Below, one piece after another: positions 43,210 to 45,883 of a stretch of DNA of 64,000 nt. Source of the stretch: Utricularia gibba (taxonomy: Eukaryota > Streptophyta > Magnoliopsida > Lamiales > Lentibulariaceae); the NCBI GenBank assembly GCA_002189035.1, contig CM007991.1, positions 1,984,001 to 2,048,000 on the forward strand, given 5' to 3'. Each line of letters begins with the position of its first letter. Within the stretch, counting starts at the first letter, position 1. The position numbers and the translations under genes were made by a program. The notes beneath the pieces are model-generated. The model searched no databases and had not been told where the DNA came from. It saw only the letters and a list, made by a program, of their open reading frames with translations.

Positions 43210-45883
43210 TCAGCCCTCCAGATCCATCCACCTGGATCGCTTCTCATGCTGGGCGTCATCTTCAGTCGCCATGATCCTCTTCTTGGTTCGAAGCATTGTC
43301 TTTATCAAAAAATTCATGAACCACCGAGCTGACTGTTTGGGGTACCTTCTCAGACTATTCATGTAGTCTATGTAAACGATCCCAAATCTCGAAGTGTATC
43401 CCGAAACCCATTCGTAATTGTCGCACCAGGACCATAAAAAGTATCCCCTTACGTCAACACCCTCCCTGCGACACGGGGACAACCATGCTTCTTCATGGGA
43501 GATGCATTTGGGTAAAGGATTGATAAGGTGAGATGAGTAGCTTGCTTACTTCATTGCCTGTAGGAGATACTCCAGGTGCTGTTTGTGGTAGGTGATTCTC
43601 AGTTGATCATCAGAGTTCTCACAGGCTGTCTTACTGATGTCGTTCGTCTCATCGCACCCTGGAGAGCAAGGAGCATGCGTCAGTTTCAACTGTGCATACA
43701 GATCATGCCCGAAAAATCGTACCGTTTTCAGTGATGTATATAGGGGGCAATGGATCATAAGTATTCTTGATGAACTTGAGGAGCTTGTGAAACCCCCATG
43801 GGACTATAAACAGCCAGTCTGATCCAGCCTATTTCATCAACAGCCAGTTCATGACTGAAGTTCTTAAGCAACAAATCATACAGGAGAACTACCCTACCTG
43901 AGGCCCGATCGGTATTCCGTTTCGAGAAACTGCACAAGAAGATGGTTGGTAAGTCAAGGGAGTAGATGAGAAGAAGATGGTGATGATGAAGGGGAAGAAG
44001 ACAAGTACCATGAAACTTTGCATGCTGATCTTTCCAGTACCCTTCAGTTTGAGGATCAGGATCATTAGAAACATAATTGGCAGTGTAGTAATTCAGTCCA
44101 AGAAAATCAAATGATCCCTTGAGCATCTCCGCTTCCTGTGGTGAAATGGGAGCCAGATTATCCGGTGGCACGTTCTCCGTCATCGTCTTGGGATAATGGC
44201 CAGTCACCAGTGGTTCCAGGAACCTGCAATTTGATTATAAACTTGAGTAGCTTATTGCATAATGTTGTACCCTTTACCTGGTTTTCTGGTACATTAACCA
44301 TCTCACCATCCCAACATGAAATCGAGAGCTCTTCTTGCAGCCTTCTGATCTTCTTCATCATCTTCATTTAGTGGCTCAAACCAGTGGGAAACAAGTGTGA
44401 TTCCTATCTTTCCCTCTTGTTTTGCCTATAATGTGATACCACAGCTTCCATAATTGCCTCTGCCACGAAACATTTAACTACTGGTTTCAGTTCGTACCTG
44501 AAAATTGTTTCTGTAGGACTGTACAGCGGCGGAATGAGCAAGCAGCAAATTTCTTGCCACAGTGTAGGCGTCTTTTGTGTGATCGTCGCTGTTATTATAT
44601 CCGTTGCCGTTGCCGTTGGTAGTGTTCTTGAGGCTGAAATACGAGGACAGGAGGTGTCTAGGTTCAAAGACGCCTCTGTATAGGACTGCGTTCGTCCCGG
44701 GATCGAGGCTGGACTGGGGCTTGAGGGCGTTCTGGGGGTTCTGAGGAGCTGGGAGGAACGGCAATGGAGCTTTGAATTCGGGGGCGATGGCGGCGGCGGC
44801 GTTCGCGAAAGCCGGTGACGCGGCTAGTGCGGAAAGCAGGGTCGTTGTGGGTTTCGTGCCTGGCGGGAATATGCCGTTGACGTATCCATGGACGGCGTAT
44901 GTCCATGTTTCGTTGAGCGTCACCCAGTATTTAACCCGGTCGCCGAACTCCCAGAAACAGAGGTCTGCGAACTCGCGGAAATCGTTCCTGTGTTCCGTTA
45001 TGCCCACCAGGTATTCGATTAAAGTTGTCATCCCCATCATGTCAAGATTGTAATAACTGAGGGGAGGAACTTACACAACTTTTTTGCTCATGAAACCCTG
45101 ATATTCATCCTGCAGGCATTGAGGAAGATCAAAGTGAAAGAGAGTAGCATAGGGCTGGAGTCCATTTGCAAGCAGAGTGTCAATCAAATCATTATAGAAG
45201 TCAATCCCTTCCCTGTTAATCCCAGCATAGCATCTTCCTCCTGGAGGAGATTGAAGTTCATCATCACTAAAGGTTAATATTGCTTTCCATCCTCTGGTAC
45301 TACATTAGTTTATTTTTTCTTCATACCGGGAAGAATCCGTGTCCATGAGATCGAGAATCTGTAAGCATCAAATCCCATTTTCTTCATTGTGGCAATATCC
45401 TCCTGAAACAACCACACACGAAGATGACTAGGCTTCTTATTAGTTGCGCTATTCATGGACAACACACCTTGAACAAAGTGTACATATCATCAGCCACATT
45501 TCCGTTTGATCCATCCTTTATCCTTCCTGTTACACACCACCACACGTGATCCCTGATGTTCCTCAAAAAAAAGTAACATTTATCTCAGGTTTGTAGATGT
45601 ACCAGGGTTTTTAAGGGAGAAGTCATCCCAAATGCTTGGCCCTCTACCTCCTTTTGCTGCTCCGCCTTCAACCTGCACATCAAAAGCTTGTGTAAGTGCA
45701 TGACCCTATTCCCTTACATATCATGAACTTGCTGCTATAACTTGTCACCTGATAGGCAGCAGTCCCAGTTCCAAAGACGAAGTACTGAGGGAAGTCATTG
45801 CGAGTGATACTCACGGCCTCATTGTTGGAGCCATTAACTATCTCGCCTCTAGAGCCGGACTGCCGAACAGGAATGTATTCCAT
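43210..45883 (-). CDS. GH1 beta-glucosidase, strictosidine-glucosidase-like lineage
   Basis: Twelve exons (45883-45749, 45672-45603, 45526-45468, 45402-45327, 45240-45075, 44987-44498, 44425-44307, 44223-44009, 43929-43898, 43828-43723, 43658-43550, 43465-43210) join in phase to 610 residues. GH1 landmarks: [25 protein letters not shown], the acid/base Glu in TLNETW (usually NEP), [14 protein letters not shown], and the nucleophile Glu in IYITENG, split by a splice. Plant GH1 enzymes are usually about 510-550 residues; the excess is a Pro/Ala/Asn-rich insertion of roughly 75 residues after NGIFPPGT. There is no signal peptide, and the C-terminus has basic clusters (TKKR, EKRSR), as in nuclear strictosidine and oleuropein glucosidases. 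A role in activating a defence glucoside is inference. Confidence 0.9.

Follow-up and report, generated by a model that had tools for sequence, protein, structure and literature searches.

The window analysed here, a stretch of 64,000 nucleotides from Utricularia gibba (contig CM007991.1, positions 1,984,001 to 2,048,000), carries a gene that, judged from its sequence, is an intact retaining GH1 β-glucosidase belonging to the clade of strictosidine glucosidase (SGD) and raucaffricine glucosidase (RG). The predicted protein has a long insertion after the acid/base Glu. The same loop is lengthened in all five of its clade-mates in this genome, in RG and in one SGD, and the insertion is therefore best described, from the alignments, as the far end of a loop which varies in length throughout the clade and lacks the usual cysteine pair. 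Because its long loop is the extreme of one that is already variable in the closest relatives, we regard the protein as a mildly atypical member of its family rather than as a new type of enzyme.

Gene Model and Catalytic Residues

The positions of the gene and of its main features are given in Table 1. The sequence bears out the coordinates put forward in the original prediction and the 490-nt length of exon 6, and it likewise shows the NET motif, the two catalytic Glu residues and the clusters of basic residues at the C-terminus. The original observation is confirmed by this, and its interpretation is upheld in part. In the hand gene model all 11 introns are of the GT-AG type, are 64-87 nt in length and begin with GTA or GTG; their GC content ranges from 0.34 to 0.48. 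The same 12 exons were recovered when the hand-built 610-residue protein was used as the query and aligned back to the DNA with a spliced protein-to-genome aligner. There is neither a frameshift nor an internal stop.

Table 1. Positions of the glucosidase gene, its features and other open frames within the window
Feature	Position	Strand	Remarks
GH1 β-glucosidase gene	43210..45883	-	12 exons, 610 aa; hand gene model and spliced aligner; PF00232
Exon 6	44498..44987	-	490 nt; carries acid/base motif and long loop
Loop region TKPTTT...DDHT	44576..44857	-	94 codons; most of the 79 excess residues
Bipartite NLS consensus, C-terminal	43231..43281	-	Consensus match; 1.8% of shuffled tails match
Small open frame	42448-42687	-	MKATAAVAVVVILGLLLSLNCGTAMAGW..., 79 aa; adjoins the glucosidase gene
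Long open frame	4862-6586	-	Aspartic protease-like, by eye
Long open frame	16164-17821	+	Rhamnose synthase-like, by eye
Long open frame	30777-33094	+	Ubiquitin-specific protease-like, by eye
Long open frame	50240-50845	-	MATE transporter-like, by eye

The protein as a whole falls within the GH1 profile, and a Pfam search with it matched PF00232 (E=1.3e-150, 502 bits) in two stretches which flank the loop. ITENG, the nucleophile motif, is intact, LNETW stands at the acid/base position, and both catalytic Glu residues align with those of RG and SGD. The same is true of the subsite residues, namely the Gln of AYQ, the His of FHFD, NYY, and the W and E-W of WSWCDNYEW. Inspected by eye for a secretion signal, the N-terminus showed no hydrophobic stretch. 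Comparison with the paralogue L013 outside the loop gave a pN of 0.23 against a pS of 0.76, the latter being saturated, so that no numeric dN/dS is given. A pN this far below pS is consistent with purifying selection, though saturation blurs the measure.

Relatives in the Genome and in Other Plants

When the complete genome (100.09 Mb in 516 contigs) was searched with Pfam, 97 exon-level matches were returned, from which 18 loci were cut. Usable models were obtained for 17 of these, one (L026) being excluded for poor alignment; together with the window gene this gave 18 genes for comparison. RG (3zj6) and SGD (9lf6), both taken from a PDB search, were added to the tree, and the loop columns were excluded. 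The window gene forms one clade (100/99) with L012, L013, L019, L022 and L024. These six genes are sister to RG and SGD (9lf6), and the resulting clade of eight rows (100/98) stands apart from the other GH1 genes sampled; the phylogeny with SGD that had been proposed as a check thus places the window gene with SGD and RG. The tree does not resolve how the window gene, L013 and L019 branch relative to one another.

Outside the loop, L013 (C4:637444-639569) shares 65% identity with the window protein. Its loop is also lengthened, but unlike the window gene it possesses NEP, a short tail without a nuclear localization signal (NLS) and, in the assembly, one apparent frameshift. The spliced alignments of L012, L013, L020, L022 and L024 each show one or two such frameshifts, which may represent residual assembly errors or decay. 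Exon 5 of the window gene (45240-45075) is a single exon of 166 nt, as it is in L019, while L012, L013, L022 and L024 have two exons here (approximately 78 and 88 nt); this suggests a common intron loss in the window gene and L019.

Rauvolfia RG (PDB 4atd, 3zj6), a sister in the tree, is approximately 54% identical to the window protein, and its C-terminus carries a bipartite NLS that agrees in form with the window tail. It differs in its shorter loop and in having NEP where the window protein has NET. SGD (PDB 9lf6, 2jf6) likewise has a shorter loop and NEP, 9lf6 falling in the same clade; strictosidine glucosidase is a nuclear defense glucosidase with a C-terminal NLS (PMC3095312). The olive enzyme OeGLU is also a GH1 protein, nuclear and homomultimeric, which takes part in a dual-partner defense (PMC8446429); its likeness to the window protein serves as a lead only.

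The Loop After the Acid/Base Glu

Counted from the GY downstream of the acid/base Glu up to the next conserved block, the loop comprises 105 residues in the window gene, 76 in L013, 56, 53, 47 and 37 in the other four clade-mates, and 24-27 in the 12 other GH1 genes of the genome. By alignment coordinates it measures approximately 44 residues in RG, SGD 9lf6 and OpBGlu1, approximately 22 in SGD 2jf6, and 26-27 in Os4BGlu12, 1cbg and primeverosidase. The insertion therefore amounts to 79 residues over the ordinary plant GH1 loop (105 vs 26) and to about 61 over that of RG (44). An insertion of about 75 residues had originally been proposed, in a place where other GH1 proteins would have a short loop; the size is right when set against ordinary GH1 proteins, but the closest relatives already have long loops. 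The notion that the insertion singles out this enzyme is weakened in the same way, since all five clade-mates show the lengthening, to varying degrees.

The ordinary loop contains a cysteine pair (RCS...C), which was aligned in 11 of the 12 short-loop genes. In the twelfth (L020) it is hidden by a frameshift in the model, and an in-frame reading gives RCS...FC. None of the six long-loop genes retains the pair, L013 having one Cys elsewhere in the loop. As all six lie on one branch, the loss of the pair and the long loop constitute one association and not repeated evidence. One small plant genome thus holds SGD/RG-type loops which span 37-105 residues after loss of the cysteine pair, a natural length series with which the contribution of the loop to assembly and to the choice of aglycone could be probed.

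The window loop has a high content of Ala, Pro, Leu and Asn and contains short 6-nt and 9-nt tandem repeats. Growth of the loop by slippage and drift would fit. The insert matched no Pfam domain, gave no meaningful PDB match, and a genome search found no second copy of it, so that neither the capture of a domain nor a repeat element is supported as its origin.

The Acid/Base Motif and Alternative Readings

Among the 18 GH1 genes compared, NET is unique to the window gene. The Pro of NEP, which is usual in GH1 without being strictly defining, is missing from the window protein and from five of the other 17 (L014-L018), which read NEA, NEG or SEA and are plain GH1 in other respects. These five genes are located on one contig (G000:C321:1225700-1253300) and have IHENG as their nucleophile motif. 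Because Ala or Gly occupies this position in five other genes, NET is a weak hint of changed function. It removes no catalytic residue, yet it may alter activity. It is absent from the relatives examined and could reduce activity.

It is conceivable, but in our opinion unlikely, that the long loop and NET together confer a new substrate range or mode of self-assembly, the protein being a functionally diverged glucosidase. In GH1 the loop following the acid/base Glu sits on the active-site side of the barrel, and that of the window gene is the longest of the 18 and is accompanied by a motif found nowhere else among them. However, loop length drifts across the clade and the sequence is poorly conserved, as is expected for an unconstrained surface segment, and the Ala and Gly found at the Pro position in other genes of the genome also argue against this reading.

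We consider it very unlikely that NET and the loop are early signs of decay in a gene whose product is weak or inactive. The singularity of NET and the apparent frameshifts in several clade-mates would agree with decay, but the window gene has kept its reading frame and all catalytic residues, and the low pN relative to pS points the other way. Slightly less credible still is the proposal that the 79 additional residues fold into an ordered lid or an interface for assembly which, in conjunction with NET, confers transglucosidase activity or a new range of aglycones.

Coding Status of Exon 6

The least probable alternative, which we regard as scarcely tenable, is that an internal intron is excised from exon 6 to leave a shorter mature loop: several GT...AG pairs within the exon would maintain the frame, but those with the GTA or GTG donor would cost the protein its acid/base Glu or the conserved YTVARN block, on which ground such an intron was rejected; the insert is unlike the introns in composition (GC 0.59, GC3 0.69), and long exons are retained in the paralogues as well. 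The equivalents of exon 6 measure 316, 333, 342 and 403 nt in four clade paralogues, whereas the ordinary GH1 genes in this genome have 247-262 nt here. These long exons are the best support for a coding insert, and the GC3 value is also stronger evidence than the open frame. The 94 loop codons are free of stops, but so are 7.8% of shuffled inserts, so that the open frame provides weak evidence of coding. Fold prediction for exon 6 in isolation returned a mean pLDDT of 42.7, which is too low to read.

C-Terminal Tail and Proposed Function

The predicted signal in the tail of the window protein fits exactly the bipartite NLS consensus, defined as two basic residues, a ten-residue spacer and three basic residues of five (PMC3095312). 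It agrees in position and form with the signal of RsRG; CrSGD, RsSGD and RsRG have signals at the same C-terminal place, which have been experimentally studied or predicted (PMC3095312). Both this exact consensus and the place of the gene in the tree speak for a kinship with nuclear glucosidases of the SGD/RG type, in agreement with the resemblance of the basic clusters to SGD noted in the original prediction. L024 is the sole other gene examined with a match in its tail, the match in L016 overlapping the end of the catalytic domain.

From its clade, its residues and its tail we infer that the gene probably encodes a working β-glucosidase, which would be stored in the nucleus and act on an iridoid-type glucoside once cells are damaged, as proposed for SGD and OeGLU. 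Upon breakage of the cell the enzyme would meet its vacuolar substrate, and hydrolysis would release a reactive aglycone. Iridoid glucosides have been reported from U. australis (as cited in PMC10222036), which fits a substrate of this type. The loop is probably a flexible surface segment at the entrance to the active site, having lengthened once the cysteine pair was lost, partly via slippage at short repeats, and its effect on aglycone access or assembly would be modest only. Counting against a working nuclear enzyme are the saturated synonymous sites, NET, and the fact that, of the six genes in the clade, just the window gene and L024 have the NLS consensus.

Neighboring Open Frames

The small open frame adjoining the glucosidase gene gave no match in a Pfam search. 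Its product begins with a signal-peptide-like sequence followed by eight Cys residues, and resembles a secreted cysteine-rich peptide.
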